Shown: in pieces, positions 17,829 to 35,229 of the stretch
Layout of the letters: each line of letters opens with the position of its first letter
Numbering within the stretch: the stretch's first letter is position 1
Source: Gallionellaceae bacterium
GTDB lineage: Bacteria; Pseudomonadota; Gammaproteobacteria; Burkholderiales; Gallionellaceae
Assembly: GCA_019753125.1 (NCBI GenBank)
Contig: JAIELH010000060.1
Coordinates: 1 to 52,298 of the forward strand
Reading direction: 5' to 3'
DNA: 52,298 bases
Translations under genes and position numbers: made by a program
Notes under the pieces: generated by a model
Database searches by the model: none
The model's input: the letters and a program-made list of their open reading frames with translations, nothing else
Told to the model about the DNA's origin: nothing

Positions 17829-18566
17829 ATGGCGTGCGCAATGGCAGGAAAAACGGAGGGTTCAAAAACTTCGCAGGCTGAAGGAGGGCAGGCGAAGCAA
17901 AAACTGATCACGATCCAGATCATGGGTAAACCCCATGATGTCCCTGCCGATGCGACGATCATGGGCGCCATCGAATATGCCGGACACCAGATTATCCGCG
18001 GCGCTGGCTGCCGCGAGGGTTATTGCGGTGCTTGCGCTACCATCTACCGGCTCCCCGGCGATCACAAGATACAAACCGGCTTGGCCTGCATGACGATGGT
18101 CGAGGAGGGTATGTCACTGGCGCAGGTGCCTTATGTCCCGGCCGAAAAGGCCATCTACGACATCGAGAAACTCAAGCCGAATGTCAGCGCCATCCAGGAA
18201 ATGTATCCATCGGTTTTCCGTTGTGTCGCATGTAATACCTGCACCAAGTCCTGTCCGCAAGGCCTGCAGGTCATGGACTATGTGCAGGCCGCCAAGCGCG
18301 GCGACATTGCGATGGTGATGGATCTGTCTTTCGATTGCGTCGTGTGCGGGATGTGCATGCTGCGTTGTCCCGCCGAAATCACACAACCCCTGGTAGGTAT
18401 TCTGGCCAAGCGCCTGTATGGCCGCTATCTGCGCAAGGACAGCCCGGAACTGGCGGAGCGGGTCAAGGCGGTGGAGGAGGGCGCCTACGATACCGAATAT
18501 GCCGAACTGATGTCGATGAGCCGCGAGGCTTTGTCAAAACGCTACTATGCACGGGACACCGAATAG
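17829..18566 (+). CDS. Fumarate reductase/succinate dehydrogenase-type iron-sulfur subunit
   Basis: A 245-residue iron-sulfur protein. The N-terminal plant-type 2Fe-2S domain has Cys61, Cys66, Cys69 and Cys87 (CREGYCGAC then ACMTM). The C-terminal part has two four-cysteine CxxCxxCxxxCP motifs (132-142 CVACNTCTKSCP; 170-180 CVVCGMCMLRCP). Classical SdhB/FrdB carry a 3Fe-4S site as well; two complete 4Fe-4S motifs are more like the thiol:fumarate reductase TfrB or HdrC families. It is the first gene of the operon and is followed by its flavoprotein partner. No membrane-anchor subunit is encoded nearby, so the complex is probably soluble. The substrate is inferred, not proven. Confidence 0.82.
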   Translation: MACAMAGKTEGSKTSQAEGGQAKQKLITIQIMGKPHDVPADATIMGAIEYAGHQIIRGAGCREGYCGACATIYRLPGDHKIQTGLACMTMVEEGMSLAQVPYVPAEKAIYDIEKLKPNVSAIQEMYPSVFRCVACNTCTKSCPQGLQVMDYVQAAKRGDIAMVMDLSFDCVVCGMCMLRCPAEITQPLVGILAKRLYGRYLRKDSPELAERVKAVEEGAYDTEYAELMSMSREALSKRYYARDTE

Positions 18567-18613
18567 GATTTAGAAAACAGATACCACCGCCTTCAGGCAA
18601 AGAGAGGAATCAG

Positions 18614-20329
18614 ATGTATCCAGATTACATGGCAGAGTCGTTGCGTAAAGTAGCTCAGACACGCCCCGCGCGTTTTGAGTTGGCCAAAAAAACCGAGCCG
18701 GTCTATCCGCCGATGAGCGCAGAAGAGCGCCGCACTGTTCTGGAAGGCTTTCATCCCGATTTTGAATCCAGCGCCCGCCGTCCGGTGCGCGTCGGCCCCA
18801 ACCGGGACGAGTCGTTGACCACCGAAGTGGCCGATTTGCTGGAATCGCACTCCTGGTTGCGCAGCGATCAGGTGGACCTTAAAAACCCGGATTTCGAGAC
18901 CGATTTGTTGATTATCGGCGGCGGTGGCGCCGGCTGTAATGCCGCGCTGGTCGCGATGAAGGAACACGGGATGCGCTCGATAATCGCCACCAAGCTGCGT
19001 ATGGGCGACGCCAACTCGATGATGTCCCAGGGCGGCATGCAGGCCGCCGTATCGCGCACCGATTCGCCGACGCGCCATTACCTGGATGCCATCGGCGGTG
19101 GCCATTTCGAGAACAAACCCGAACTGGTCAGGGCGCTCACCGAAGACGGCCCTGGCGTAGTCAAGTGGCTCGAAGACCTGGGCGTGGTGTGGGACAAGCA
19201 ACAGGACGGCGCGATGAAGACCATGCACGGCGGTGGCACATCGAGGAAGCGCATGCTTTCCTGCCGCGACTATACCGGCGCGATGATCATGCGCACGCTG
19301 ATGGATGAGGTGCGCAACCATCCCGACATGATCGACATCAAGGAATTCATGCCGGCCGTGGAGCTGATCATGGACGACAAGGGGCGTTGTGCGGGCGCGG
19401 TTCTCTACGACATGGAAAGCGAGGAATTTTTCACCGTCAAGGCGAAATCCACGCTGATCGCCACCGGCGGCTACGGCCGTTTGCATATTCGCGGTTACGA
19501 CACCACCAATCATTATGGCGCCACCGGCGACGGGCTGGTGATGGCGTATCGTGCCGGCGCGAAACTGATGTACATGGATTCGGTGCAGTACCATCCGACC
19601 GGCGTCTCGTTTCCCGAGCAGATTGCCGGCTTTCTGGTTACCGAAGCGATCCGCGGAGCGGGTGGCCAGCCGCTGAACAAGGAAGGCGAGTTGTTCGTTT
19701 ATCCGCGCGAACCGCGCGACATCGAGGCTGCGGCGATCATCCGCGAGTGCGTGCAGAACGGCGGCGGCATCCCGACGCCGTCGGGACGTGTCGGCGTGTG
19801 GCTGGACTCGCCGCTGATCGATATGCTGCACGGCGAGGGTTACACCGACAAGCATTTCCCTGCGATGTATCGCCAGTTCATCCGCTACGGCATCGACATC
19901 ACGAAGCTGCCGATGCTGATTTACCCGTCGCTGCATTACCAGAACGGCGGCATCGAGATCAACGAGCGTTGCGAGACGGATATTCCCGGCCTGTATGTGG
20001 CTGGCGAAGCGACCGGCGGCCTGCATGGCCGCAACCGGCTGATGGGCAATTCGGTGCTCGACTACAATGTGTTCGGTCGCCGTGCCGGACGCTATGCCGG
20101 TGAGTACGCCAAGACGGTCAAGCTCGGCAAGCTCAGCCTGGCGCATCTCGATAGCTACGAAAAAGAATTGGCGGATAACGGTGTACAGTCCAGTCTGGTA
20201 ACGCCGATCCTGTTGCCGTCCTACACCCCCAAGGATGTCAAGAAACGCCAGCTGGTGCGTGGCGGCAATTCGCTGCCCGGCGCATCGGTGCTAAGCAACA
20301 GGTTGTTCGATGAAGGCCTTGGCGCCTGA
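18614..20329 (+). CDS. Fumarate reductase/succinate dehydrogenase-type flavoprotein subunit
   Basis: A 571-residue FAD protein of the FrdA/SdhA/TfrA superfamily. After a roughly 95-residue N-terminal extension comes the FAD-binding IIGGGGAGCNAAL, then SQGGMQAAVS (flavin attachment region), the QYHPTG motif (326-331), the catalytic arginine motif EPRDIEAAAI (Arg368 equivalent to the proton-donating Arg of FrdA) and GEATGGLHGRNRLMGNSVLD. These are the residues needed for fumarate/succinate interconversion. The start was set at the ATG preceded by aggaat, since upstream sequence overlaps the previous gene. With the preceding gene it forms a soluble enzyme candidate; in a reductive TCA cycle it would reduce fumarate. 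Confidence 0.85.
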   Translation: MYPDYMAESLRKVAQTRPARFELAKKTEPVYPPMSAEERRTVLEGFHPDFESSARRPVRVGPNRDESLTTEVADLLESHSWLRSDQVDLKNPDFETDLLIIGGGGAGCNAALVAMKEHGMRSIIATKLRMGDANSMMSQGGMQAAVSRTDSPTRHYLDAIGGGHFENKPELVRALTEDGPGVVKWLEDLGVVWDKQQDGAMKTMHGGGTSRKRMLSCRDYTGAMIMRTLMDEVRNHPDMIDIKEFMPAVELIMDDKGRCAGAVLYDMESEEFFTVKAKSTLIATGGYGRLHIRGYDTTNHYGATGDGLVMAYRAGAKLMYMDSVQYHPTGVSFPEQIAGFLVTEAIRGAGGQPLNKEGELFVYPREPRDIEAAAIIRECVQNGGGIPTPSGRVGVWLDSPLIDMLHGEGYTDKHFPAMYRQFIRYGIDITKLPMLIYPSLHYQNGGIEINERCETDIPGLYVAGEATGGLHGRNRLMGNSVLDYNVFGRRAGRYAGEYAKTVKLGKLSLAHLDSYEKELADNGVQSSLVTPILLPSYTPKDVKKRQLVRGGNSLPGASVLSNRLFDEGLGA

Positions 20330-20347: not shown

Positions 20348-20881
20348 ATGACTCATATTGACGACAAAATAATCGAGCTGGCCCGTACCGCACTCAGTTA
20401 CGAGTACGGCGAGGAGCACTTTTACCGCCATGCGGCCGAGATGACCCAGAACCCGGGCGGCAAGGCGATGTTTCTCCGTCTTGCCGAGGAAGAATCGGGG
20501 TATATGGAAGATATGCACAAGTTGTTCAGCGCCGTCATCGGCAATGATCTGTGGCAGCAACTTGCAGCCGAGGAAGCGGCGCATGCCCACCCGTCGAAAG
20601 TGATCGCCGAGATGGAGGCAGCCGTTGTACAACGTGGCCACGCGGCTCTCGCCGACGATGCCCAGGCATTGCGTATGGCGCTGGAGCTTGAACGGCGGAT
20701 CATCCATTTGCTGAAGGAATTGTCCGGTCATACCCAGGATTCCGACGCTCTTAAACTGATAGGCAAGATGATTACCGAGGAATGCTCCCAGTACGATGCG
20801 CTCCAGGCGCAGATGGACAGCATACAGAATGTGGGGTTGTGGCTCGACACCCCCGAGTTTCGGATGGATGGAAGGTTCTGA
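20348..20881 (+). CDS. Ferritin-like (rubrerythrin-type) protein
   Basis: A 177-residue all-helical protein with carboxylate/histidine motifs typical of ferritin-like diiron proteins: SYEYGEEHFYRHAAE, LAEEESGYMEDMHK, LELERRII and ITEECSQYDAL. No rubredoxin-type cysteine site is present, so it is not a full rubrerythrin. Possible roles are peroxide or oxygen removal, or iron delivery, near a set of oxygen-sensitive iron-sulfur enzymes. It sits 18 bases after the flavoprotein gene and 10 before the HdrC-like gene, so is surely co-transcribed. Function is inferred from fold only. Confidence 0.75.
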   Translation: MTHIDDKIIELARTALSYEYGEEHFYRHAAEMTQNPGGKAMFLRLAEEESGYMEDMHKLFSAVIGNDLWQQLAAEEAAHAHPSKVIAEMEAAVVQRGHAALADDAQALRMALELERRIIHLLKELSGHTQDSDALKLIGKMITEECSQYDALQAQMDSIQNVGLWLDTPEFRMDGRF

Positions 20882-20891
20882 ACGGACAATC

Positions 20892-21311
20892 ATGGATACT
20901 ACTCTGCGCATCACCTCGGCCCGTGCCGGCAGTTCTTTCGTGGCCAATATTGAAAAAGTCAGCGGCCAGAAGTTGCTGGCCTGCTACCAGTGCGGCAAGT
21001 GCTCTGCCGGTTGCCCGATGGCGGCGCATATGGACGTGCTGCCCAACCAGATGATCCGCATGGCGCAACTGGGGATGCAGGAGCAACTGCTGGCGACACG
21101 CTCGATCTGGATGTGCGTATCCTGTCTCACGTGCAACTCGCGTTGCCCGAAAGGCATAAAAATCGCCGAGGTTATCGAAGCGTTGCGCAAGGCGGCACTG
21201 AACACCGGGCAGCGCAACGATCATCTCCACGTCATGGAACTCTCCGCCGAGGCGCGCGCCGTGCTGCCGCCAATCGCGATGATCGGCGCCATGCGTAAAC
21301 TGACCTCCTGA
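20892..21311 (+). CDS. hdrC: Heterodisulfide reductase subunit C-like protein
   Basis: A 139-residue protein with two 4Fe-4S motifs, CYQCGKCSAGCP and CVSCLTCNSRCPKG, spaced as in HdrC. HdrC passes electrons between HdrA and the catalytic HdrB. The start was chosen at the ATG just after the preceding stop; the longer open frame overlaps the ferritin-like gene. It is followed 13 bases later by an HdrB-like gene, the standard hdrCB pair, whereas hdrA is separated from it by the kor genes. Confidence 0.9.
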   Translation: MDTTLRITSARAGSSFVANIEKVSGQKLLACYQCGKCSAGCPMAAHMDVLPNQMIRMAQLGMQEQLLATRSIWMCVSCLTCNSRCPKGIKIAEVIEALRKAALNTGQRNDHLHVMELSAEARAVLPPIAMIGAMRKLTS

Positions 21312-21324: not shown

Positions 21325-22242
21325 ATGGGAAATGAAAATAAACCGATGAAGCTCGCCTACTACCCCGGCTGTACGCTAAAAAACCAGGCCACCAATTTTG
21401 ATGTTTCCACGGTTTCGTCGATGGCGAAACTGGATGTGGAGGTCGAAGAACTGGATCGCTGGAACTGTTGCGGTACGGTGCATGCACTGGATTCCGACAA
21501 CGTCATGAATCGCGTTGCGCCGATAACCAACATGATTCGTGTCAAGGAGGCGCAGGCCAAGACCGAAGGCATGGCCAGCGAATTCATGACTTCCTGCGCG
21601 ATGTGCTACAACACGCTCAAGCGCGCCAACATCGATGTTAAGCAGCGCGCCGATGCGCTGGAAACCATCAATAATTTGCTGTACCTCGAGAAAACCAAAT
21701 ACGAGGGCGACGTCGAAGTGCTTCATCTGCTCGAGTATCTGCGCGACCGCGTCGGCTTCGATAATCTCGCGAAAAAGGTAACAAAACCGCTCAAGGGGCT
21801 GCGTGTGGCCAGCTACTATGGTTGCTTGCTGGTGCGCCCGAAAGAAGTCGCCTTCGACGATGTCGAGAACCCGATGGTGATGGAGAACCTGATTCGTGCG
21901 CTGGGCGCCACGCCGGTGGAGTTTTCGCATAAGACCGAATGCTGCGGCGCTTATCAGACCGTCGATAAACCGGAAGTCATTGCCGATCGCACCGACAAGA
22001 TCATGGGGGCGGCAAGCGAAGAGCAGGCCGACATGGTTGTCGTGAGCTGCCCGCTGTGCGCCTTCAATCTGGACTATCGCCAGGATGACGCCAAGCGCCT
22101 CAACCCCGATTTCCAGAACATGCCGGTGCTTTACTTTACACAGTTGATGGCGCTGGCGTTCGGTTGTGATGAGTCGGCCTTGCGCTTCGATCTCCAGCAT
22201 ATCGATCCGCTGCCGGCCTTGAAGGCTCGCGGGCTGGCTTAA
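21325..22242 (+). CDS. hdrB: Heterodisulfide reductase subunit B-like protein (two CCG domains)
   Basis: A 305-residue protein with two complete cysteine-rich CCG motifs: Cys16, Cys48/Cys49 and Cys91/Cys94 in the first, Cys167, Cys206/Cys207 and Cys242/Cys245 in the second. In methanogens these bind the non-cubane 4Fe-4S clusters that reduce CoM-S-S-CoB. Here the disulfide partner is unknown. Adjacent to a fumarate-reductase-like pair, the HdrCB pair could instead pass electrons to that flavoprotein, as in thiol:fumarate reductases. The first residues (MGNENKPMK) are unconserved. Confidence 0.9.
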   Translation: MGNENKPMKLAYYPGCTLKNQATNFDVSTVSSMAKLDVEVEELDRWNCCGTVHALDSDNVMNRVAPITNMIRVKEAQAKTEGMASEFMTSCAMCYNTLKRANIDVKQRADALETINNLLYLEKTKYEGDVEVLHLLEYLRDRVGFDNLAKKVTKPLKGLRVASYYGCLLVRPKEVAFDDVENPMVMENLIRALGATPVEFSHKTECCGAYQTVDKPEVIADRTDKIMGAASEEQADMVVVSCPLCAFNLDYRQDDAKRLNPDFQNMPVLYFTQLMALAFGCDESALRFDLQHIDPLPALKARGLA

Positions 22243-22252: not shown

Positions 22253-22516
22253 ATGTTTTTCAACGATATCAAGCAGACTCGCGGCGAAGTGCATATCAAT
22301 GCCACCTGGTGCAAGGGCTGCGCTTTCTGTGTGCAGTTTTGCCCCACCAATGTGCTGGAGATGTCCCCCGAGTTTAACGCCAAGGGTTATCACCCGCCTT
22401 ATGTGAAGAACCCGGAAGCATGTACCGATTGCAAGTTTTGTCAACTTATCTGTCCGGAGTTTTCCATCTTCGTGAACAGGGTAGAAGAGAACAACATAGG
22501 AGAAACAAATAAGTGA
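22253..22516 (+). CDS. korD: 2-oxoglutarate:ferredoxin oxidoreductase delta subunit (2x4Fe-4S)
   Basis: An 87-residue ferredoxin-like subunit with two motifs, CKGCAFCVQFCP and CTDCKFCQLICPEF, the pattern of KorD/PorD proteins. It conveys electrons between external ferredoxin and the catalytic subunits. The ribosome binding site aaggag is six bases upstream. Its stop overlaps the GTG start of the alpha-subunit gene, and the order delta-alpha-beta-gamma is that of archaeal and Aquificales-type KOR operons. Confidence 0.92.
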   Translation: MFFNDIKQTRGEVHINATWCKGCAFCVQFCPTNVLEMSPEFNAKGYHPPYVKNPEACTDCKFCQLICPEFSIFVNRVEENNIGETNK

Positions 22517-23754
22517 AAACAAAGCCAAGCGGAGTTTCAGGTACAGGAGGTTCCGGCGGTGATGTTTGCAGCAGCGAACGTTATCCCGGAGCGACAATCG
22601 TCACCGCAGACCCGAAAGGGGTTGATGCCGGCCCTCATTTCATGGATGGCGATCATGCGATCGCCGAAGGCGGGTTGGCTGCCGGTTGCCGGTTCTTTGC
22701 CGGCTATCCGATCACGCCTTCGACCGAGGCAGCAGAGCGCTTTGCCGAGCGTGCGCCGGAAGTCGGAGCGATGTTCATTCAGATGGAAGACGAGCTCGCG
22801 TCGATCGCCGCACTGATCGGCGGCGCATGGGGCGGGCAGAAATGCATGACCGTGACCTGTGGTCCAGGTTTCTCGCTGATGACGGAAAACCTTGGCTTGG
22901 CTTGCATGACCGAAACCCCGATGGTGATCGCCAACGTGCAGCGCGGCGGCCCGTCTACCGGCCTGCCCACGCTGACCGCCCAGCAGGACATGATGCAGGC
23001 GCGCTACGGCCCGCATGGCGACAACATGATCATCGCCCTGTGCCCGGACAGCCCGCAGGAATGTTTTGATCTCACCGTCGAGGCGTTCAACCTGTCGGAA
23101 TATTACCGGGTGCCGGTCATCATTCTGACCGACGAGACCGTCGGCCACATGCACGAAAAAGTGGTGATTCCGCCGGCCGACCAGATCAAGATACTGCCGC
23201 GCAATAACTACAGCGGCCCCAAGGAGAGCTGTCGCCCGTATAAGTTTGACAGTCAGGGCGGTCATCCGATGGTGCGAGCAGGCGATGGCTACAACTTTCA
23301 CATCACCGGCCTGACTCACAACGAGAAGGGCTATCCGGTCATGACCGCCGAACAGAATGTGAAGGTCGTGACCCATCTGATGGAGAAAATCAACGGCAAT
23401 GCCGACAAGATCATCCGTCTTGAGGAGAACGAGATCGACGGCGCCGATGTCGTGGTGGTGTCTTATGGCATCACTTCGCGGATCGCCGTCAAGGCCATCC
23501 AGGATGCGCGCAAGGAAGGCATCAAGGTCGGCTCGTTGCGCTTGATTACGATCTGGCCGTTCTGCGAAAAACGCATCCGCAAACTGGCGCCCAAGGTGAA
23601 GGCGTTCGTGGTGCCGGAAATCAACTATGGCCAGATGGTCAAGGAAGTGGAACGTTGCGCGGGCGGCGTAAAAGTAATCAGCGTCAATCACTGCGGTGGT
23701 GCGGTGCATGATCCTGATGTCATCCTGGCCGCCATCAGAAAGGCAAACCAATGA
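22513..23754 (+). CDS. korA: 2-oxoacid (2-oxoglutarate):ferredoxin oxidoreductase alpha subunit
   Basis: A 413-residue alpha subunit. Conserved elements are GCRFFAGYPITPSTE, the MEDELASIAALIGGAWGG region, RGGPSTGLPTLTAQQDMMQARYG and the C-terminal domain II with VVSYGITSRIA. The YPITPSTE motif and the separate small gamma subunit are typical of KOR/VOR-type enzymes; substrate assignment to 2-oxoglutarate rests mainly on the neighbouring ATP-citrate lyase and fumarate-reductase genes. The GTG start overlaps the korD stop and has aggaga upstream. Some 40 N-terminal residues are Gly/Ser-rich and unconserved. Confidence 0.9.
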   Translation: MKTKPSGVSGTGGSGGDVCSSERYPGATIVTADPKGVDAGPHFMDGDHAIAEGGLAAGCRFFAGYPITPSTEAAERFAERAPEVGAMFIQMEDELASIAALIGGAWGGQKCMTVTCGPGFSLMTENLGLACMTETPMVIANVQRGGPSTGLPTLTAQQDMMQARYGPHGDNMIIALCPDSPQECFDLTVEAFNLSEYYRVPVIILTDETVGHMHEKVVIPPADQIKILPRNNYSGPKESCRPYKFDSQGGHPMVRAGDGYNFHITGLTHNEKGYPVMTAEQNVKVVTHLMEKINGNADKIIRLEENEIDGADVVVVSYGITSRIAVKAIQDARKEGIKVGSLRLITIWPFCEKRIRKLAPKVKAFVVPEINYGQMVKEVERCAGGVKVISVNHCGGAVHDPDVILAAIRKANQ

Positions 23755-25028
23755 GTACCGATATCGAAAAATTCAAGGCGGGCAGCCCGATGTCCAGCAC
23801 GTTGCGCATGGACCGGATGCCGCATATCTGGTGTCCCGGTTGCGGCATTGGCTCCGAGGTGAATTCTTTTGCCGAGGCGGTCAAGCGCAGCGGCATCGAT
23901 CCGAAGAAAGTGGTTGTGGTGTCCGGCATCGGCTGTACCGGCCGCGTTGCGGGCTATGTCAATTTCGATTCGATTCACACCACGCACGGCCGCGCCATTC
24001 CTGTCGCTACCGGCATCAAGCTGGCCAATCCGGAACTGACGGTGGTGGTGTTCAGCGGCGAGGGCGATCTGGCCGGCATTGGCGGCAACCATTTGATCCA
24101 TGCCGCACGGCGCAACATGGATCTGGTGGTCATCTGCAACAACAACTTCACCTATGGCATGACCGGCGGTCAGTTGACACCGACCACGCCCGGCAGTGCG
24201 ATGGCATCGACTACGCCCTACGGCAACTATGAATATCCGTTCAGCCTGCCGTTCCTGATGGATGCCTGCGGCGCCACCTATATTGCACGCTGGACATCGC
24301 TGCATTCGCGCAATGTTACCCAGTCGATCGAAGAAGCGTTGCTGCGCAAGGGCTTTTCCTTCATTGAAATCATTTCGCCGTGCCCGACGCTTTACCTGCG
24401 CCGCAATCGCCTCGGCGATGGCGTCGATCAGCTCCAGAACTATCAGGATAACTCGATACTCAAGCACGGCGCCGACACACGTGAGACCGCCATTGACTAT
24501 CAGGGCAAGATTGTCGTCGGCAAGTTCGTCGAGAAGAACAAGCCTACCTATCTGGAGGCTTCCGACAAGTGTTCAGTCAAACTGGTCGGGGATGATTATC
24601 AGCTTTACGGTAAGACCATACCCGAGCGGGAAGCCGAGGAAAAAGCCGAGAAGGAGCGGATTGCCGCTCGCCGCGCCGCGATGCAGGCAGAGCCGGAAGA
24701 GGCTGCTGCTGAACCCAAGAAGGCAGCCGCGCCCAAGGCTGCCGTAAAGAAGGCTCCAGCGAAGCCTGCTGCCGCCTCCAAGACAGCGAAGAAGGCTCCG
24801 GCAAAGGCCAAGCCGGTGAAGAAGGCTGCGGTTAAAGCAAAACCGGCGAAGAAAGCTGCAACAAAAGCCGTTGTGAAGGCTCCGGCCAAGAAGGCAGCAA
24901 CCAAAGCGACCGTCAAGAAAGCCGCCCCAAAGGCAGCCAAGACTAAAGTTGTGGCCAAGGCAGTAAAAAAGGCCGCGCCCAAGGCAACCGCCAAAGCCAA
25001 GGCAGCGCCTAAAAAGACCCGTAAGTAG
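23751..25028 (+). CDS. korB: 2-oxoacid:ferredoxin oxidoreductase beta subunit with histone-H1-like C-terminal tail
   Basis: Residues about 1-288 form the thiamine-diphosphate-binding beta subunit: HIWCPGCGIG with cluster cysteines, GIGCTGR, the TPP motif GEGDLAGIGGNH, CNNNFTYGMTGGQ, and Cys211 in ISPCPTL. That is already the usual full length. The remaining 135 residues are unlike any normal KorB: a charged helix (PEREAEEKAEKERIAARRAA) leads into about 108 residues made almost only of Lys, Ala and Pro, in KKAA, KAPAK and AKAKP units similar to histone H1, AlgP or PhaF tails. The frame is uninterrupted to its stop, with korC following after 11 bases. The tail would be disordered and strongly basic, suited to binding a polyanion. 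Confidence 0.93.
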   Translation: MSTDIEKFKAGSPMSSTLRMDRMPHIWCPGCGIGSEVNSFAEAVKRSGIDPKKVVVVSGIGCTGRVAGYVNFDSIHTTHGRAIPVATGIKLANPELTVVVFSGEGDLAGIGGNHLIHAARRNMDLVVICNNNFTYGMTGGQLTPTTPGSAMASTTPYGNYEYPFSLPFLMDACGATYIARWTSLHSRNVTQSIEEALLRKGFSFIEIISPCPTLYLRRNRLGDGVDQLQNYQDNSILKHGADTRETAIDYQGKIVVGKFVEKNKPTYLEASDKCSVKLVGDDYQLYGKTIPEREAEEKAEKERIAARRAAMQAEPEEAAAEPKKAAAPKAAVKKAPAKPAAASKTAKKAPAKAKPVKKAAVKAKPAKKAATKAVVKAPAKKAATKATVKKAAPKAAKTKVVAKAVKKAAPKATAKAKAAPKKTRK

Positions 25029-27771: not shown

Positions 27772-28206
27772 ATGTCTGAACAACAAGATTACGAACCAAG
27801 AATCGTTGCATTCCTGTGCAAATGGTGCTCGTCGGCCGGCAGCGATCTGGCCGGCGTTTCGCGTATCCAGTATCCGGCCAACGCGACGCCGATCACCGTT
27901 CCATGCACCGGCGCGATATCCCCGATGTACATCCTGTCTGCCTTCAACAAGGGCGCGGATGGCGTTCTGGTGTCGGGTTGCCATATCGGCGACTGCCACT
28001 ACATCGAGGGCAACTTCCTGGCGCGGCGCAAGATGCAACTGATCATGGAGCTGATCGAGTTTATCGGCGTCGAGCCGAACCGGTTCCGGATGTCCTGGGT
28101 ATCGGCCGCCGAGGGCGCCAAGTTTGCTACTGTCATCACGGATTTTGTCAACGACCTGAAGCCGCTCGGGCCGCAGGACAAGCTGAAAAGGGCGGAGCAG
28201 GCATGA
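27772..28206 (+). CDS. flxD: MvhD/FlxD-type iron-sulfur electron-transfer protein
   Basis: A 144-residue protein of the hydrogenase delta-subunit (MvhD/FrhD-like) family. It has the cysteine pattern FLCKWCSSAGSDLAG, then VPCTGAI and GVLVSGCHIGDCHY, which hold a 2Fe-2S cluster. It links an electron donor module to HdrA. No hydrogenase genes are present; instead the donor appears to be the FAD/NAD(P) protein encoded downstream, as in the FlxABCD-HdrABC system. Its last bases overlap the next start (ATGA). Confidence 0.92.
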   Translation: MSEQQDYEPRIVAFLCKWCSSAGSDLAGVSRIQYPANATPITVPCTGAISPMYILSAFNKGADGVLVSGCHIGDCHYIEGNFLARRKMQLIMELIEFIGVEPNRFRMSWVSAAEGAKFATVITDFVNDLKPLGPQDKLKRAEQA

Positions 28207-29234
28207 TTAATCTTCAGGATATCCGCGACACCGCGAGGGACATGCTCGCAAAAGGCGAGGTACGCACCGTCATCGGCTATCGGCGCGGCACTCGCGGCAT
28301 GCTCGCCGAACCGGCCTTTATCACCGATCCGGCGCAGGCCGACGATCTGGTGTGGAATCCGACCTGTTTCCATAACCTGTCTCTGTATCTGGTCGAAGAC
28401 CGCAAGTTCCTGGCGCATCTGCGCCAGAACCCGGGTGCGCCTATTGGCATCGTTGCCAAGGGATGTGATGCGCGCTCGATCGTCGTGCTGATGCAGGAGC
28501 ATTATTTCAAGCGCGAAGATGTCTACATCATCGGCGTATCCTGCGAAGGCACCGGGGTCGTGGATGAACGCAAACTGGCTCCCCACCTGAATGGCTTTCA
28601 GGCTTCAGATGCGGTTTTTGACGGCGACGATTTCGTATTCACCACCGCGCAAGGCGAGAAACGTCTGCCGGCCCGCGAGGTGATGGCAGACCGGTGTCTG
28701 GAATGCCGCATACCGTTTCCCAAAGAGCACAATCTGGTATTCGGTGAAGATAAAACCGGGCGCCAATTGGCGGAGCCATTTGCCGCGCTGAAACGCTTCG
28801 AGGCCCAGGAAGGCGGCGATCGCTGGAATTTCTGGAGCCACCATTTCGATCGTTGTATCCGCTGTTTCGCGTGCCGCTCGGTGTGCCCGATGTGCTACTG
28901 CGACGAGTGCGTCGTGGACAGCATCACCTTCCCGGTTACCTCGGAAACCTCGGCGGAAGAAAAAGCCAACCGCATCCGCTGGATCGAGCGCTCGGCGACA
29001 CGTTCCGAAAACATCACCTATCTGATGACGCGCGCGATGCACCTGGCAGGCCGTTGCACCGATTGCGGCGAATGTGAGCGCGCCTGCCCGGTCAACGTCC
29101 CGATACGGCTGCTCAACAACAAAATGGAACGGGAAGCCCGCGAAAAATTTGGCTTTGAGCCAGGAGCAAGCATCGGAGGGCCGTCGCTGGTGGCCTCCTT
29201 CCTCGATAACGACCCCGGCGATTTCATCAGGTAA
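28203..29234 (+). CDS. Iron-sulfur protein of an Flx-type module (FlxB/FlxC-like)
   Basis: A 343-residue protein. Its N-terminal two thirds resembles the FrhB/4Fe-4S dehydrogenase-type fold (GIVAKGCDARSIVVLMQE, DRCLECRIP). The C-terminal third carries a dense cysteine cluster (CIRCFACRSVCPMCYCDEC) and a second motif CTDCGECERACPV, so up to two or three 4Fe-4S clusters. It probably wires the NAD(P)H-oxidising subunit to FlxD and HdrA. The ATG overlaps the flxD stop; the longer open frame overlaps flxD in another frame and is discarded. The exact Flx subunit equivalence is uncertain. Confidence 0.8.
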   Translation: MINLQDIRDTARDMLAKGEVRTVIGYRRGTRGMLAEPAFITDPAQADDLVWNPTCFHNLSLYLVEDRKFLAHLRQNPGAPIGIVAKGCDARSIVVLMQEHYFKREDVYIIGVSCEGTGVVDERKLAPHLNGFQASDAVFDGDDFVFTTAQGEKRLPAREVMADRCLECRIPFPKEHNLVFGEDKTGRQLAEPFAALKRFEAQEGGDRWNFWSHHFDRCIRCFACRSVCPMCYCDECVVDSITFPVTSETSAEEKANRIRWIERSATRSENITYLMTRAMHLAGRCTDCGECERACPVNVPIRLLNNKMEREAREKFGFEPGASIGGPSLVASFLDNDPGDFIR

Positions 29235-29238: not shown

Positions 29239-30273
29239 ATGGAAAAGATTTTAGAAAAGAAACGTATTGACGACTGGATCAAGGCCTTATCCGACTGGGA
29301 AGTTCATGCGCCGGCACTGCAAGACGGCATCTGGACGTATCAACCGGTCAGCGGCGCGATCAGGCTCGATCACCCCAATACCAACCAGTCGCCCAAAGGA
29401 TTCGCCTTCCCGCAGCGCGAGATATTTTTCTCGTTCGAGCAGATCAAGGGTGAGCCGCCCAAACTGAAGCAGGTGCTGCCGAAAACGCCGCAGCATGCCG
29501 TGTTCGGTGTCCGTCCCTGCGATGGGCGTGGCGTGCCGCGCATGGATAAGGTGTTCAACGATCATGTGGAAGACCCCTATTACAACGCGCGCCGCAAAAA
29601 TGTCGCCTATGTGGGGCTGGCCTGCAACAAGCCGCCCAGCCCGAACTGCTTCTGCCTGTCGGTCGGCGGTTCGCCGGTTTCCACCGATGGACTCGATGTC
29701 CAGTTGACCGACATGGGCGACCGCTATTTTGTGAAGGCGATCACCGAAGCGGGCAAGGCGCTGATGAAGGCAGCCGACGGCATGTTCAGTGATCCGTCCG
29801 CCGCCGAACAGAAACAGTTGAAGCAGGTGCATGCCGAGGCGGTGGCTCATCCGCAGCGCAAGGTCAATGATCCCGATGGCGCGCCGGCAAAACTGAAGGC
29901 AAATTTCAATTCGCCGTTGTGGGAAGAGATGGCGCGTGCCTGTATCGGTTGCGGCATTTGTACTTTCCTCTGTCCGACCTGCCATTGCTTCGATATCAAT
30001 GACGAGGTGCAAAACAAGGCGCCGCTGAAGGGCCAGCGGGTGCGCACCTGGGACAATTGCCAGTTCCCGGATTTCACGATGCACTCGTCCGGCCACAACC
30101 CGCGCGAAAACACCGGCGCCCGGTTGCGCCAGAGAGTGAACCACAAATTTCAGTATTTCCACGAAAATTTCGGGATGCACCAGTGTACCGGTTGCGGCCG
30201 TTGCATCACCGGATGTCCGGTGGGGATCGATATCGTCACTGTAGTCAATAAGGTAACCGAACATGCCGGATAA
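29239..30273 (+). CDS. AsrA/HydB-like iron-sulfur protein of the Flx-type module
   Basis: A 344-residue protein resembling the sulfhydrogenase beta / anaerobic sulfite reductase A family. It has GVRPCDGRGVPRMDKVF and CNKPPSPNCFCLSVGG in the N-terminal domain, then two ferredoxin motifs, CIGCGICTFLCPTCHCFDI and CTGCGRCITGCPVGIDI. Such proteins pair with an FAD/NAD(P)-binding AsrB/HydG-like partner, and exactly that is encoded next, overlapping by 11 bases. The start ATG follows the previous stop by five bases; the longer frame overlaps the previous gene. Confidence 0.83.
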   Translation: MEKILEKKRIDDWIKALSDWEVHAPALQDGIWTYQPVSGAIRLDHPNTNQSPKGFAFPQREIFFSFEQIKGEPPKLKQVLPKTPQHAVFGVRPCDGRGVPRMDKVFNDHVEDPYYNARRKNVAYVGLACNKPPSPNCFCLSVGGSPVSTDGLDVQLTDMGDRYFVKAITEAGKALMKAADGMFSDPSAAEQKQLKQVHAEAVAHPQRKVNDPDGAPAKLKANFNSPLWEEMARACIGCGICTFLCPTCHCFDINDEVQNKAPLKGQRVRTWDNCQFPDFTMHSSGHNPRENTGARLRQRVNHKFQYFHENFGMHQCTGCGRCITGCPVGIDIVTVVNKVTEHAG

Positions 30274-31087
30274 CATCTATCTTCCGCAACTGGCCAGAGT
30301 CGCCTACATCAAGGACGAGGTGTACGGTGAGCGCGCCATCAAGACTTTCCGCGTCGAGCCTGTGGACGGCAAGCTTTTTGACCACGAGTGCGGCCAATGT
30401 GCGATGCTCTCGATCTTCGGGCGCGGCGAATCGATGATCTCGATTGCATCCTCGCCGCTGATCAGGGAATACAAACAGTTCAGCATCATGAAGGTGGGGC
30501 GTGTAAGCTCCGCTTTCCATGAACTGGAAGTGGGCGATGTCATCGGTATCCGCGGGCCTTATGGCAACAGCTTTCCGGTTGACGACTGGCGCGGCAAGAA
30601 CCTGTACTTTATCGGCGGCGGCTGCGGCCTGGCGCCGATCTGGCCGGTAATCACCACTGCGGTGGCGCAACGCGATTATTTCAAGAATATCACCGTATTC
30701 TACGGCGGGCGCACCTCGCGCGACATCATGTACCGGACGGAACTCGAAAAGTTGCGCGATTCGGTCGATGTCCACCTGTCGATAGACAAGGCGGAGGAGG
30801 GTTGGGAGGGATACTGCGGCTTTGTGCCGGCAGCCGTGATGGACAAGGATCCCAATCCGGGCAATGCCATCGCGATCACCTGCGGGCCGCCGATCATGAT
30901 CAAGTTCGTGATCCAGAACCTGAACAAGCTCGGGTTCAAGGATGAACAGATTTACACGACCATCGAAAACAAGATGAAATGCGGCATCGGAAAATGCGGC
31001 CGTTGCAATGTCGGCAAGGATTATGTTTGCGTTAAGGGGCCGGTCTATTCCTGGGCAGAATTGAAACACTTGCCTGAAGAGTATTAA
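30263..31087 (+). CDS. flxA: FAD/NAD(P)-binding oxidoreductase (FlxA/AsrB/HydG-like)
   Basis: A 274-residue ferredoxin-NADP reductase-like protein. It has an N-terminal FAD-binding barrel (GQCAMLSIFGRGESMISIASSP in two parts), an NAD(P)-binding domain starting NLYFIGGGCGLAPIWPVI, the TCGPPIMIKF motif, and a C-terminal 2Fe-2S site with Cys240, Cys245, Cys248 and Cys256. This is the subunit that would oxidise NAD(P)H and feed the HdrA flavin. It is the last gene before the ATP-citrate lyase genes, separated from them by a strong hairpin. Confidence 0.9.
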   Translation: MPDNIYLPQLARVAYIKDEVYGERAIKTFRVEPVDGKLFDHECGQCAMLSIFGRGESMISIASSPLIREYKQFSIMKVGRVSSAFHELEVGDVIGIRGPYGNSFPVDDWRGKNLYFIGGGCGLAPIWPVITTAVAQRDYFKNITVFYGGRTSRDIMYRTELEKLRDSVDVHLSIDKAEEGWEGYCGFVPAAVMDKDPNPGNAIAITCGPPIMIKFVIQNLNKLGFKDEQIYTTIENKMKCGIGKCGRCNVGKDYVCVKGPVYSWAELKHLPEEY

Positions 31088-31172: not shown

Positions 31173-32453
31173 ATGAACGTCAGTGGTATGCTCTACGGAG
31201 CGCAGTTGCTCAAAATCGTCGATTTTCCGGCGTCCGAAGTGCTGGGGCCGGAAGCCAGCGATCACGAGATACACAACCTGATCGAGCGTTGCGGCTCGGT
31301 CTTTGTGAAGCCGATTTTTAAAGGCGGCATCGGCAAGAAGGGCAAGTCCGGATTGATCGGACGCGCCAAAGACTTGAAATCCGCGCTGGCCGAGAAAGAG
31401 CGTTTGTACTTCTGCGAATACAAGGTCGGCGATGTCGTTTACAAGTCGCGCGGCGTCACTTTCGAGGGCGCTGTCCCGGCCCAGCATGAAATTTACTTTT
31501 CGATCACCGACTCGACCCGTTATCGTGCGCCGGTGATGACGCTGACCCATCACGGCGGCATGGACATCGAGGAGCTGGACAAGAGCCAGATCATCGAAGT
31601 TCCGTTCGATCCGCTGACCGGACTCAAGTCCTTCGTCATCTCCAACGCGCTGTCCGACCTGGGCGCGCCGCGCGAGATCGTGTCGCCGCTGGTGCAGCAC
31701 CTGCCGAAGCTGTGGGACCTGTACCACCATTACGGCATGTCCACGATGGAACTCAACCCAATCCGCATGATGGAAGGAAAATCCGGTTCGCTGATCCCGG
31801 TGGCCTGCGACTTCAAGTGCGGTTTTGACCGCGACGATCCGCGCGTGAACCGTTTGAAACTGCCCGACGATCTGTTCGTTACCGAATCCAACGATTTCGA
31901 GCAGGAGATCAACGAGCTGCGCACCTATCAGGGGCAGAGCGATGTTTACGTGATCAACGACAAGGGCACGATTCTGGCGCCTACCTTTGGCGGCGGCGCA
32001 AATTCGCTGGTCACCGAAGTGCTGGGCAACGACGCGATCATCTCTTCCGACTTTGGCGGCAACCCGCCTTACGAGAAGATGTACGACGTGATGCGTATAT
32101 GCCTGAAGTATTATCTCAAGCAGTCGAACGTGCTGTTCGTCATCGGCGGCAAGGCCAACAACACGGACATCTTTGTCACGTTCCGTGCGATGGCCGACGC
32201 GTTGCGCGATTACTTCAGCGAACACGGCCCGACACCGCTGTATGTGGTGATTGGCCGCGGCGGCCCGAATGTGATACGCGGTATGGGGGTTTTCAAGGAT
32301 GTGCTCGACTCGTTGCGGATTCCATACCGGATATTCGGCTTCGACTCTGCGATGACTGACGTGGTGAACTACGCTCAGGAAGCGGATCGCTGGATGAAGA
32401 GCGGTGGCCGTGCCGAAGTGGCGAAGGTTCTGGGTTTGCCAGCCGATGCGTGA
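31173..32453 (+). CDS. aclB: ATP-citrate lyase, ATP-grasp (small, AclB-like) subunit
   Basis: A 426-residue protein matching the N-terminal (succinyl-CoA synthetase beta-like) part of ATP-citrate lyase. The ATP-grasp lysine region is VFVKPIFKGGIGKKGKSG (Lys46 in front), STMELNPIRM corresponds to the metal-binding ENPL-type motif, and LAPTFGGGAN with NVLFVIGGKANNTDIF resembles the citrate-binding domain rather than SucC. It is followed by the CoA-ligase/citrate-synthase-like subunit. The enzyme cleaves citrate to acetyl-CoA and oxaloacetate with ATP and CoA, the key step of the reductive TCA cycle. It is divergent from green-sulfur-bacterial AclB by eye. A good ribosome binding site (aaggggt) lies upstream. 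Confidence 0.83.
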   Translation: MNVSGMLYGAQLLKIVDFPASEVLGPEASDHEIHNLIERCGSVFVKPIFKGGIGKKGKSGLIGRAKDLKSALAEKERLYFCEYKVGDVVYKSRGVTFEGAVPAQHEIYFSITDSTRYRAPVMTLTHHGGMDIEELDKSQIIEVPFDPLTGLKSFVISNALSDLGAPREIVSPLVQHLPKLWDLYHHYGMSTMELNPIRMMEGKSGSLIPVACDFKCGFDRDDPRVNRLKLPDDLFVTESNDFEQEINELRTYQGQSDVYVINDKGTILAPTFGGGANSLVTEVLGNDAIISSDFGGNPPYEKMYDVMRICLKYYLKQSNVLFVIGGKANNTDIFVTFRAMADALRDYFSEHGPTPLYVVIGRGGPNVIRGMGVFKDVLDSLRIPYRIFGFDSAMTDVVNYAQEADRWMKSGGRAEVAKVLGLPADA

Positions 32454-32487: not shown

Positions 32488-32526
32488 AATACGAATGAAC
32501 AATGAATTAAGTAAAGGTGACAAGCA

Positions 32527-35229
32527 ATGAGAAAGCCTGGTATCGAAAATTTTAAATATTTTGTCGGCATCCGCTCCCTGGCCGATATCGCGACCCGCGA
32601 AGATCGCATCTGCGTACTCAACATCATGGGGAACGAATCGCGTGCCGTGACCCCGGTCAGCCACGCCTATTCCGGCGGCAATGTGGTGTTCGGCACTTCT
32701 CCCGGGCGCCGCGGGCAAGTCCTTGAGACGCCTGCCGGCAATATCCCTGTATACAACAACGTGCGCGAAGGTCTGGATGCCGGACACAAATTCAATGTCG
32801 GCGTCGTCTATTTGCCGCCCTCCGCCGTGCGCGACGGCGTTGCCGAACTGATCCGGATCAACCCCGATATCGAAAAAGTCATCATCCTTACCGAGAAAAT
32901 AGCGGTGCATGATGCACGCGAAATACGCGCGCTCGGCCAGCAGCGCGGCGTGGATATTTTCGGCGGCAACTGTCTGGGCGTAGCGGACTCGTGGAACAAC
33001 GTGCGGATAGGCGGTGCGCTGGGCGGCGACAAGCCTGCAGAAACCTTGCGCAAGGGTTCGGTTGCGATTTTCTCCAACTCGGGCAACTTCACCACCACGA
33101 TCGCCAACTATCTGTCGATCGGCGGCTGGGGTACGACGACGCTGATCTCCAGCGGCAAGGATATCTACATCAACTACGCTGCTCCGGAGTTTGCCTTCGC
33201 GATGTCCAACGATGCGCGCACCAAGGCGGCGGTGTTGTATTCCGAGCCGGGCGGCTACTATGAACAATCGGTCACCTTCGACAAACCGGTGGTGGCCTGC
33301 GTGGTGGGGCGCTGGAAGGCGAATCTGACGCGTGCCGTCGGCCATGCCGGTGCGATCGCCGGATCGGGCGACGATGCGCGCGCCAAGGAAAAATGGTTCA
33401 TGGACAAGTTCGGTGTGAATGACTTGTTCACACCGGAAAATCCGGTATGTTCGAAAAAAGGCGCGGTAGTTACCAACATCGCCCATATTCCGCAGGCGCT
33501 GACTGCGGTGATGAAACTGAACGGTGTCGAGAAAGACTTTGCGCCGGAAGGCAATCTGGAATTGAAGCCATGGTTCGGCGACGATCAGGGGCTGAAGCTG
33601 CCGGCCGCGTTGAACATTCCGGTGGTCAAGGCGATGTCGCCTTACGATGAACAGATCGCCGAGCTGCTCAAGAATGTCGGCGCGATCTTCCCGCGCCAGA
33701 GCATGAAAGACTGCTCTGGCAGTTCGGTGATGGACCCGAAGACCCAGGTCACCAAAGTCAATAACATCTCGATCCTGGATACCGCCAAGCAGCCGCTGGA
33801 ATCGAACCTGTGCCTGGCGCTGGTGCGCGAACACAACGACGCCAACGACAACATTTTGTTCAACCTGGCGGTTGCGGCACGTGTCAACCTGCATGGCGAG
33901 CCGATGCTGGCTGCTGCCGATGCGGCGCGCGAAGCCGGCAACGCACCAAATACCGCGATCAGTGCCGCTGTCGCGCTGCTCGGGCCGAAGCGCGTCGATG
34001 GTGCACGCCAGGCGGCCGATACCCTGACCGAATTGTTCGCTCATTCCGGTCTGTCCAAGGGCGACGATGAGCAGGCCAAGATCACCCCGGCCACGGCTAC
34101 CCCGGAACAGCTTGCAACGTTGCTGGGCAAGGCGCCGGATGCGCAAGCCGAAGCCTTGCTCAAGGCTTTCGACAAGCGTGGCGCCAAGTCGGTATTCGTG
34201 CGCTACTTGCGTTCGTTGAACGGCCACCCGACCACCGATGCGGTGATCGCCGCGCTCACCACGACTATCGCGTGGGAGCCGCTGATCCGCAAGCGCATCT
34301 CGCGTCTGACCGTGCGCAACCTGCCTTGGTATGCACACCTGTTCGCCGTCATCATCGGCGCTTCGACCGAGAGCAAAAACCATCAGCCGGGCAAATTCTG
34401 GGGCGTCTCCAACGAAGAAATGCTGGAATCATGGACCGTCACGCAATTGGCTTACCTCGCGCTGCTGGGTGAGAAACCAACAGCGGCGAACCTGTTCCCG
34501 TTCCAGGTGATGCTGGGCCTGATCATCTCCAACGGCGTCGGCACGATCTCGGCACAAGGCTGCAAGGGCGCGGTATCGGCCGACGGCCCGGAATCTCCGG
34601 AGCGCGTGCAGATCAACAAGGGCATGATCGGTTTCCTGACCCATACCGGATTCGCGCATGGCGGCAACGGCTACGAAGGCATCCAGTTCCTGATCGAGAG
34701 CTTCAAGGGCACCCCGCTGGCAGACGCCAGCACCGCCAACCACGGCCTCGACCTGAAGAAAATGGCGACGGAATTCGCGCTGGCGTTCAACAAGGAAAAG
34801 AAGGTCAACAAGGCGCTCGGCGTGCCGGTGCGCAGCATCCCCGGCGTCAACCATCCGGTGTTCAAGGGCCATCCGGTCAACCATGATCCGCGCGAGGTTT
34901 ACATTGCCGACCTGTTTGCCGAGCGTGGCGAGAAAAATATTTTCCACGACTACTACCGGACGCTGGTGCAGGCACTGTACGACAACGGCGTGACGGCCAA
35001 TGTGTTCTGCGTCAACATCGACGCGATCATCGCCGCGATGCTGCTGAAACTCCTGTGGTCGCGCTACCGCAAGGGCGAGTTCAGCGAAAGCTCGATGGAA
35101 ATGGCCGCGTTCACCGCGTTCCTGTTCGGCCGCATGGCAGGCTGCGCCGGTGAGATCGACGACCACATCAACCGTGGCCGCAACATGGATACCCGCACTC
35201 CGGCTTCGCAGTGCAGCCACGTTTCGTAA
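32527..35229 (+). CDS. aclA: ATP-citrate lyase, CoA-ligase/citrate-synthase-like (large, AclA-like) subunit, long form
   Basis: A 900-residue protein. Residues about 1-400 are succinyl-CoA-synthetase-alpha-like, with CoA-binding FSNSGNFTTTIANYL and the phospho-histidine loop VGHAGAIAGSG (His273). Residues about 560-900 are citrate-synthase-like, with candidate catalytic residues in GFAHGGNGYEG (His711), FKGHPVNHDPRE (His782/His786) and CVNIDAIIAAML (Asp832). An Ala-rich linker domain (about 430-555) accounts for the length well above the roughly 610 residues of green-sulfur-bacterial AclA. This suggests the atypical ACL class proposed for Magnetococcus-like bacteria (from memory). It could alternatively be a citryl-CoA-related enzyme. 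The ribosome binding site is aaaggtgac. Confidence 0.82.
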   Translation: MRKPGIENFKYFVGIRSLADIATREDRICVLNIMGNESRAVTPVSHAYSGGNVVFGTSPGRRGQVLETPAGNIPVYNNVREGLDAGHKFNVGVVYLPPSAVRDGVAELIRINPDIEKVIILTEKIAVHDAREIRALGQQRGVDIFGGNCLGVADSWNNVRIGGALGGDKPAETLRKGSVAIFSNSGNFTTTIANYLSIGGWGTTTLISSGKDIYINYAAPEFAFAMSNDARTKAAVLYSEPGGYYEQSVTFDKPVVACVVGRWKANLTRAVGHAGAIAGSGDDARAKEKWFMDKFGVNDLFTPENPVCSKKGAVVTNIAHIPQALTAVMKLNGVEKDFAPEGNLELKPWFGDDQGLKLPAALNIPVVKAMSPYDEQIAELLKNVGAIFPRQSMKDCSGSSVMDPKTQVTKVNNISILDTAKQPLESNLCLALVREHNDANDNILFNLAVAARVNLHGEPMLAAADAAREAGNAPNTAISAAVALLGPKRVDGARQAADTLTELFAHSGLSKGDDEQAKITPATATPEQLATLLGKAPDAQAEALLKAFDKRGAKSVFVRYLRSLNGHPTTDAVIAALTTTIAWEPLIRKRISRLTVRNLPWYAHLFAVIIGASTESKNHQPGKFWGVSNEEMLESWTVTQLAYLALLGEKPTAANLFPFQVMLGLIISNGVGTISAQGCKGAVSADGPESPERVQINKGMIGFLTHTGFAHGGNGYEGIQFLIESFKGTPLADASTANHGLDLKKMATEFALAFNKEKKVNKALGVPVRSIPGVNHPVFKGHPVNHDPREVYIADLFAERGEKNIFHDYYRTLVQALYDNGVTANVFCVNIDAIIAAMLLKLLWSRYRKGEFSESSMEMAAFTAFLFGRMAGCAGEIDDHINRGRNMDTRTPASQCSHVS

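Follow-up and report, generated by a model that had tools for sequence, protein, structure and literature searches.

Gene content and layout of the locus

The stretch of DNA analysed here (the window, 52,298 nucleotides) is the entire contig C13 of a metagenome-assembled genome (MAG) of a Gallionellaceae bacterium, which comprises 97 contigs and 2.47 Mb and is 88% complete. We take its genus to include 'Candidatus Ferrigenium straubiae' KS03, 'Ca. F. altingense' and several Gallionella MAGs; Gallionellaceae are freshwater iron oxidisers known for the Calvin cycle. Positions 17829-35229 of the window hold 16 co-directional genes on the plus strand in the order frdB-like, frdA-like, ferritin-like, hdrC, hdrB, korD, korA, korB, korC, hdrA, flxD, flxC, flxB, flxA, aclB and aclA, with no internal stops in the named genes. 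They encode a fumarate reductase (Frd)-like pair, heterodisulfide reductase (Hdr)-like subunits, a 2-oxoacid oxidoreductase (KOR), Flx proteins and, as argued below, ATP-citrate lyase (ACL). We read the locus as a cluster for the reductive tricarboxylic acid (rTCA) cycle of the tubeworm-symbiont type, which probably gives this bacterium a second route of carbon fixation beside the Calvin cycle. What the sequences give directly is gene content, gene order, conserved motifs and co-occurrence.

17661..17690, plus strand: candidate sigma-70-like promoter, TTGTAA-18-TATAAT, consensus match only
17829..18566, plus strand: frdB-like, 245 aa; one 2Fe-2S and two 4Fe-4S motifs, all NCBIfam matches below curated cut-offs
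18614..20329, plus strand: frdA/tfrA-like fumarate reductase flavoprotein, 571 aa; catalytic motifs present, covalent-FAD His replaced by Asn
20348..20881, plus strand: ferritin-like protein, 177 aa; weak family matches, expected diiron His ligands not retained
20868..21311, plus strand: hdrC; two 4Fe-4S motifs
21325..22242, plus strand: hdrB/SdhE-like; two complete CCG motifs
22253..22516, plus strand: korD, ferredoxin-like delta subunit, by homology
22513..23754, plus strand: korA, 2-oxoacid:acceptor oxidoreductase alpha subunit; above the NF006412 cut-off
23751..25028, plus strand: korB, beta subunit; C-terminal K/A/P-rich tail of ~110 aa
25040..25606, plus strand: korC, gamma subunit, by homology
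25728..27677, plus strand: hdrA; full-length homologue of HdrA in solved heterodisulfide reductase complexes
27772..28206, plus strand: flxD/MvhD-like, by homology
28203..29234, plus strand: flxC-like Fe-S protein, by homology
29239..30273, plus strand: flxB-like Fe-S protein, sulfhydrogenase beta-like, by homology
30263..31087, plus strand: flxA, FAD/NAD(P)-binding oxidoreductase, by homology
31173..32453, plus strand: aclB, ATP-grasp and citrate-binding subunit, by homology
32527..35229, plus strand: aclA, putative type II ATP-citrate lyase large subunit, 900 aa; 57% identity to Ca. Endoriftia persephone

A first-pass annotation of this DNA had described a run of fifteen genes behind one good promoter. 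The genes that it named are all present on one strand, but the count is too low by one, the 177-aa ferritin-like open reading frame (ORF) at 20348-20881 between frdA and hdrC having been overlooked. Its description of the junctions as mostly overlaps or gaps under 50 bases fits 11 of the 15, which overlap or leave at most 47 bases, whereas four are longer (korC-hdrA 121, hdrA-flxD 94, flxA-aclB 85 and aclB-aclA 73 bases); likely starts are 18614 or further upstream for frdA, ~20868 for hdrC, 28203 for flxC and 29239 for flxB. The promoter match scores 10/12 and is indeed the sole plus-strand match in 17300-36200, but the two strands together give five matches where shuffled sequence gives 8.9 on average, so that it makes a weak candidate for the operon promoter.

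The arrangement is more than chance because the 16-gene order recurs in all five of the same-family genomes that hold both parts and whose whole stretch was read (G006, G012, G015, G061 and G593), which answers the earlier call to look for this order elsewhere; in G428, from another family of the class, aclBA precedes frdB rather than following flxA. The ferritin-like gene sits at the identical place in 10 of 10 relatives examined there. The second His of its ExxH, which we take to be the expected iron-binding pattern, is Gln in nine of 11 aligned copies and His in two, and the iron site may have been lost in most copies.

The encoded enzymes

AclB scores above the cut-offs of PF08442 and PF16114 (ATP-grasp, citrate-binding), and the SucD-like first third of AclA, the only part of that protein detected by Pfam, scores above those of PF13607 and PF02629. 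Citryl-CoA synthetase (6hxq), which we take to come from Hydrogenobacter, is the best solved match both of AclB and of the first 290 residues of AclA; after this small-subunit homologue the window AclA adds a further 600 residues that are citrate-synthase-like by motif. Along its full length AclA is 57% identical to AclA of Ca. Endoriftia persephone (P0170; 911 columns), and H273, H711, H776, R789, D832 and R869 are invariant in 66 of 66 aligned homologues. We take H273 to be the SucD-like active-site His, and the contexts of H776, R789 and D832 resemble, in our judgement, citrate synthase catalytic motifs. Among five AclA proteins scanned, one homologue (P0121) exceeds the Pfam citrate synthase cut-off (PF00285) over residues 724-862, equivalent to window residues 705-842, and two more (P0161, P0093) match below threshold. 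From these motifs and matches we argue that aclBA encodes a two-subunit ACL whose AclA probably has a citrate synthase-like fold. A mere succinyl-CoA ligase was set aside in view of the 600-aa C-terminal part with its invariant citrate-synthase-like residues.

NCBIfam returns no ACL match for either subunit, and where the source records name AclA in the rows shown, they call it 'CoA-binding protein', 'hypothetical protein' or 'succinyl-CoA synthetase (or ligase) alpha', sometimes with '/citrate synthase' added; with such names and without such matches, it would be understandable if the ACL had been overlooked. Three further copies deviate: AclA at L044 (10001-12653) is out of frame over its match and AclB of G017:C51 is matched in two pieces, each by sequencing error or decay, and G067 carries, besides the usual copy, a second aclB (C11:7863-9134) with 70% identity to that of the window.

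FrdA scores best against the TfrA model, with 344 bits where the cut-off is 718, and FrdB matches the TfrB model weakly (31 bits, cut-off 385) and the succinate dehydrogenase/fumarate reductase (SDH/FRD) iron-sulfur model about as weakly. The motifs for dicarboxylate binding and catalysis at the fumarate site are kept in 119-120 of the 120 best FrdA homologues listed. At the position of the His through which SDH and quinol FRD bind FAD covalently, the window FrdA and 120 of 120 of these homologues carry Asn. Loss of the covalent FAD bond in E. coli FRD hurts succinate oxidation more than fumarate reduction, and because of this replacement we read FrdA as a probable fumarate reducer rather than a succinate oxidiser. 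An ordinary SDH/FRD was set aside, given the missing His and a separate sdhA on contig C19. Homologues of FrdA with ~75% identity occur in MAGs of Aminicenantes, which fits an arrival of Frd from anaerobes; for the tubeworm-symbiont cluster, transfer from a distant clade has been proposed (PMC6315080; this and all other papers cited are represented here by excerpts).

KorA lies above the NF006412 cut-off and KorB, KorC and KorD below their equivalog cut-offs. The best solved match of the KorB core is the 2-oxoglutarate:ferredoxin oxidoreductase 8ys5, followed by 2-oxoacid enzymes. Unlike 8ys5, the window KorB ends in a polycationic tail: 136 residues follow the conserved core mark, with 36% Ala, 28% Lys and 10% Pro, a net charge of +33 and a terminal KKTRK (DNA ~24700-25025). 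A KorB motif picked up 19 distinct loci of this type, among them the window, and KorB ends in such a histone-H1-like tail at all 19; 16 of these were re-read and three escaped the stricter motif. In four of four outside relatives (L085, L090, L091 and L092) KorB ends 21-31 residues past the same mark, without a tail. Fifteen comparisons with the window gave a mean identity of 93% for the core and 70%, with many gaps, for the tail, the frame staying open, and 14 of 16 copies end in KKTRK, KKPRK or NKTRK (L009 and L039 extend a few residues further). Because the frame is open and the ends are alike despite the lower identity and the gaps, we take it that the tail is translated and conserved for composition rather than sequence. 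Tailed KorB also occurs in L018, L019 and L027, from records named Hydrogenophilus, Gammaproteobacteria and Hydrogenophilales. That the tail might bind polyphosphate, the nucleoid or an acidic partner are guesses.

Against solved structures, HdrA aligns end to end with the HdrA of heterodisulfide reductase complexes (E 1e-193), and both HdrA and HdrB are full-length homologues of the subunits of methanogen HdrABC (5odc, 7bkb, 8rvu); unlike there, Flx proteins replace the hydrogenase, and fumarate-reductase-like and KOR genes are interleaved. HdrB retains two full CCG motifs and scores 167.5 bits against the HdrB model and 168.1 bits against the model of SdhE, the anchor subunit of methylmenaquinol:fumarate reductase and an HdrB-like partner of Frd. 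FlxD is MvhD-like, and FlxB and FlxA resemble the beta and gamma subunits of sulfhydrogenase. All parts predicted for a bifurcating HdrABC-Flx are thus present: an Fe-S HdrA, a CCG HdrB, and MvhD-like and NAD(P)H-flavin subunits.

Neighbouring genes, the rest of the cycle and distribution

The cluster had been taken to end at 35229, yet further genes of the cycle continue beyond it.

40344..42287, plus strand: aconitase, by homology; adjoins ACL in many relatives
42367..44592, plus strand: monomeric NADP isocitrate dehydrogenase (IDH), by homology; adjoins ACL in many relatives
44705..45865, plus strand: sucC, by homology
45924..46805, plus strand: sucD, by homology
49902..51323, minus strand: pntB, transhydrogenase beta subunit, by homology; near the operon and the genes por and ppdk in G061
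51354..52241, minus strand: pntA at the window end, C-terminal part of the model, by homology

Between the operon and aconitase, on the opposite strand (35766-39809), lies a hybrid histidine kinase of 1347 aa with PAS, HAMP, receiver and Hpt domains, a possible regulator of the operon. A gene for succinate-semialdehyde dehydrogenase (SSADH) stands between sucD and pntB, and between sucD and SSADH a 370-aa ORF on the minus strand (46865-47977) has no NCBIfam match at the thresholds applied. The left part of the window is a housekeeping block (signal peptidase, rnc, era, recO, smc, pyrG, kdsA, eno), followed by folD, ppa and acs up to the operon; ppa and acs (14804-17484) are directly upstream of it here, where G006 and G061 have genes for pyruvate:ferredoxin oxidoreductase (PFOR). 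The G+C profile shows no step at either operon end, and foreign origin as judged by composition was set aside for that reason; a search for tRNA at the operon ends found none.

The first-pass annotation had asked for PFOR and RuBisCO in the rest of the genome, and both were found. Contig C37 carries, in one run, rnfC, rnfB, an apbE-like gene, pyruvate phosphate dikinase (PPDK; 1312 bits, cut-off 843) and PFOR (1770 bits, cut-off 911). A form II RuBisCO gene on the 3-kb contig C97 runs off the contig end after its first 217 aa and stands divergent from a CbbR-like gene, so that the rTCA cycle would be an additional pathway in this genome. Contig C19 carries sdhA and citrate synthase. 2-oxoglutarate dehydrogenase has no match in the window genome, a MAG that is 88% complete, and has matches in 64 of the 76 genomes of the genus; on C19 no ORF following citrate synthase is long enough to encode it (16 kb read; L078 7537-14203), unlike G006, which carries it close behind citrate synthase. 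Malate dehydrogenase (mdh) is not among the annotated ORFs of the window, whose small ORFs were partly searched. Going upstream from frdB in G006, a PFOR that points away ends after ~3 kb, and Rnf comes behind it at ~10 kb from the operon; in G061 PPDK and PFOR are directly upstream of frdB and co-directional with it, and pntB and SSADH follow further on.

With the window's own genome counted, aclB occurs in 35 of 158 genomes of the family, spread over seven of 15 genera, and in four of 369 sampled across the class; a KorB core of this type occurs in five of 399 sampled across the order. Nearly all of the 34 other family genomes hold an aclB that is 90-96% identical. Within the genus 21 of 76 genomes have aclB and 12 have the operon hdrA (at least 82% identity), 11 of these together with aclB. 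The 14-gene unit from frdB to flxA is found in G087, which has no aclB match in its genome, and also in G621 and G508, which belong to other families of the order and show no ACL within the 35-40 kb examined. Conversely, aclBA-acn-icd stands without an adjoining unit in the three Ferrigenium MAGs and in several further genomes, mostly together with sucCD; the operon hdrA has no genome-wide match in G007, G016, G020 and G026, the other loci being judged on a 10-kb flank. Twelve more distant ACL loci come from Azoarcus, Magnetococcales, gamma- and alphaproteobacteria; at 11 of them the available flank, short in some, contains no gene of the 14. In the AclA tree, from which L044 (broken frame), L004, L008, L025, L040 and L042 were excluded, the sequences of Gallionellaceae type fall together in a single group (100/100); to account for the label 'no Hdr-Kor next door', three changes are required (17 and 8 labelled rows). 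Since the unit occurs without ACL and ACL without the unit, the two are, on this distribution, separable modules joined here. The earlier proposal that the operon packages the irreversible steps of the cycle with their electron supply is thereby qualified: ACL, KOR, the Frd-like pair and a plausible supply do lie together, but as two modules.

Other genes of the route accompany ACL. NifJ-type PFOR is found in 18 of 21 ACL genomes of the genus and in five of 55 without ACL, some copies being cut by contig ends (p 3e-10); this count omits a protein of ~1500-1700 aa (six genomes) and a shorter one (three genomes), all without ACL, and with both of these Pfam-family types included it becomes 18/21 versus 14/55 (p 3e-6). 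Both p values ignore shared ancestry, which counts against leaning on them. A KorA frame of the size of a gamma-alpha fusion (~570-670 aa) is present in 15 of 21 ACL genomes and three of 55 others, one of these a fragment. RuBisCO was matched in 16 of 20 ACL genomes searched. G012 (99% complete) and G068 (97%) have aclB and the operon hdrA with no RuBisCO match, and are candidate rTCA-only members.

Known relatives, proposed working and rival readings

This kind of cluster, and the idea that it bifurcates electrons, have been published for tubeworm symbionts, Thioflavicoccus mobilis and a gammaproteobacterial MAG (PMC6315080, PMC11636981). The first-pass annotation knew of no betaproteobacterial operon of this composition; the kind itself was thus already described, but we found no description of it in Gallionellaceae in the open-licence literature (excerpts, supplements aside). 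In these organisms KorABCD lies between HdrBC and HdrA, with acn, idh, pntAB and rnf around, an rbr (rubrerythrin) gene is marked in the clusters, the ACL of tubeworm symbionts is termed type II, and electron delivery from Hdr-Flx to 2-oxoglutarate oxidoreductase (OGOR) and Tfr has been proposed (Rubin-Blum et al, 2019; PMC6315080). The window resembles that cluster in its type II aclAB, korABCD, tfrAB, interleaved flxABCD-hdrABC, acn, idh and pntAB, in its ferritin-like gene beside their rbr, and in the RuBisCO of the same genome. It differs in its betaproteobacterial lineage, not named in the excerpted text, in that mdh was not seen in the window, in having PFOR and PPDK beside Rnf, and in the KorB tail, direct sequence comparison having covered AclA. 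The rnf genes are on contig C37 in this genome and upstream of the operon, behind PFOR, in G006. In the Endoriftia operon, too, KorABCD separates HdrA from HdrBC and Hdr-Flx separates kor from acl, pntAB is part of the cluster, and its expression and intergenic coverage were taken as signs of an operon (PMC11636981); unlike the window bacterium, Endoriftia is a sulfide-oxidising symbiont, and its AclA is 57% identical. Among Betaproteobacteria, a Ferrovales-like MAG, bin 139a, was reported to hold all Calvin-Benson-Bassham (CBB), rTCA and iron-oxidation genes (PMC6094481); it belongs to the order Ferrovales, and the excerpted text describes no operon. A pangenome of 103 Gallionellaceae genomes judged carbon fixation by RuBisCO genes, its main text as excerpted being without mention of TCA, citrate or Hdr (PMC10734462), and the 2025 report on the isolation of 'Ca. 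F. straubiae' is, in its excerpted text, without TCA or heterodisulfide (PMC12622760). Judged by its sequence, then, the operon is real, well conserved in the family and of a known kind, with a host lineage new to the literature found and a lineage-specific KorB extension.

Complex formation, bifurcation, direction and expression of the operon proteins we infer. FlxA would oxidise NADH and pass the electrons through FlxB, FlxC and FlxD to the HdrA flavin, where each pair would be split. On the downhill branch HdrC and HdrB would hand them to FrdB and FrdA for the reduction of fumarate to succinate; on the uphill branch the HdrA ferredoxin domain would serve KorABC, through free ferredoxin or directly through KorD, and KorABC would carboxylate succinyl-CoA to 2-oxoglutarate. 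IDH, aconitase and the two-subunit ACL would complete the turn to acetyl-CoA and oxaloacetate, and PFOR and PPDK would take acetyl-CoA on to phosphoenolpyruvate. Because PFOR requires a second reduced ferredoxin and the Rnf genes are linked to it, Rnf is proposed as the likely source. With potentials of +33 mV for fumarate, -320 mV for NADH and -420 to -500 mV for ferredoxin, the bifurcation of 2 NADH onto fumarate and oxidised ferredoxin has standard energetics of -33 to -49 kJ/mol. Two NADH would yield one reduced fumarate and one reduced ferredoxin, the need of one turn before PFOR, and the products would match one to one because one turn reduces one fumarate and carboxylates one succinyl-CoA; this stoichiometric argument for bifurcation is proposed in the present analysis. 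The direct HdrC-HdrB-FrdB wire is preferred mainly because HdrB is equally akin to HdrB and SdhE.

Several observations weigh against a working rTCA route of this kind. The Frd, Hdr and Kor proteins mostly stay below the NCBIfam equivalog cut-offs; PF00285 has no match in the window or the Endoriftia AclA in the Pfam scan, and when profiles were compared, AclA showed no significant similarity to one citrate synthase. Ten of the 21 ACL genomes of the genus lack a match to the operon hdrA at an identity of at least 82%, and 15 of the 21 carry 2-oxoglutarate dehydrogenase; in the window genome, SdhA and citrate synthase indicate that an oxidative cycle may be running too. At the one remaining of the 12 more distant ACL loci, L029 from a gammaproteobacterial MAG, frd, hdr and flx homologues (28-58% identical) stand divergent from aclBA with no kor among them, an argument that Kor does not belong to the unit in every lineage. 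Expression of Endoriftia tfrAB did not track the rest of its cluster (PMC11636981). In field reports, bacterial lipid isotopes at Crystal Geyser were read as CBB, with Gallionella assigned to CBB and Sulfurimonas to rTCA (PMC7242380), and in Crater Lake mats cbbM was assigned to Gallionella and aclB to Nitrospira (PMC9516098).

Possible, with the odds somewhat against it, is that no single Frd-Hdr-Flx-Kor complex exists: HdrABC-Flx would reduce a small disulfide (DsrC-like or other) together with free ferredoxin, Frd would be a separate thiol:fumarate reductase fed by the resulting thiol, and KOR would draw on free ferredoxin. Both CCG motifs of the disulfide-reducing site are retained in HdrB, FrdA is nearest to TfrA, with FrdB about equally weak to TfrB and the SDH/FRD model, L029 has its homologues without kor among them, and this alternative, with a DsrC-like protein, has been named before (PMC11636981, in excerpt). 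Against these stand the lack of a DsrC-like gene among the annotated operon ORFs, the equal closeness of HdrB to SdhE, which works with FrdB, and the interleaved order HdrCB-KorDABC-HdrA, kept irrespective of ACL by every locus read with both HdrB and HdrA except L029 (10 of 11). A bolder and rather unlikely proposal is that the 14-gene unit forms one complex, an NADH:fumarate reductase that would drive succinyl-CoA carboxylation by internal bifurcation without free ferredoxin, locked at 1:1; as a transferable half-cycle it would have been combined with ACL on more than one occasion, and in Gallionellaceae the KorB tail would anchor it.

Unlikely to a slightly greater degree is that the locus has nothing to do with autotrophy, ACL yielding acetyl-CoA from citrate for biosynthesis or storage and Frd-Hdr-Kor making 2-oxoglutarate and balancing redox at low O2, while the Calvin cycle fixes carbon. 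The unit without ACL in G087, G621 and G508 implies a use of its own, most ACL genomes have RuBisCO, acs lies upstream of the operon in the window, and the two field reports place Gallionella in the Calvin cycle. What counts for the rTCA route instead is that PFOR goes with ACL, as does PPDK or an Rnf set in the genomes read, and that four of the 20 ACL genomes have no RuBisCO match, two of them (G068 and G012) being 97-99% complete.

It is improbable that the pathway runs oxidatively, with KOR oxidising 2-oxoglutarate, the Frd pair oxidising succinate and Flx-Hdr confurcating to NADH. Without a 2-oxoglutarate dehydrogenase match, and with the C19 ORFs too short, KOR may be the only such enzyme in the genome, but the MAG is 88% complete and has a separate SdhA, every one of the 120 FrdA homologues listed lacks the covalent-FAD His, confurcation from succinate would cost 33 to 49 kJ/mol, and ACL works toward cleavage. 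A binning artefact, the contig being foreign to the Gallionella genome, is very hard to credit and contamination was set aside: the MAG has 97 contigs and its RuBisCO is on one of 3 kb, but the operon shares a 52-kb contig with era, smc, pyrG and eno, without a G+C break at its ends, and aclB recurs in the 34 further family genomes.

For the family, an rTCA route beside the Calvin cycle would have practical consequences. If about a fifth of it (35/158) holds ACL, isotope and marker surveys of iron-rich groundwater may misread carbon fixation. 'Ca. Ferrigenium straubiae' (taken as G026) has ACL and no match to the operon hdrA, and relatives have both; as a cultured member of the family thus shares part of the cluster, its use could be tested. 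If true, the one-complex proposal would let a user of high-potential electrons from Fe(II) drive a low-potential carboxylation from NADH, and the contrast between straubiae and its relatives opens to experiment the question of how iron oxidisers power such carboxylations.

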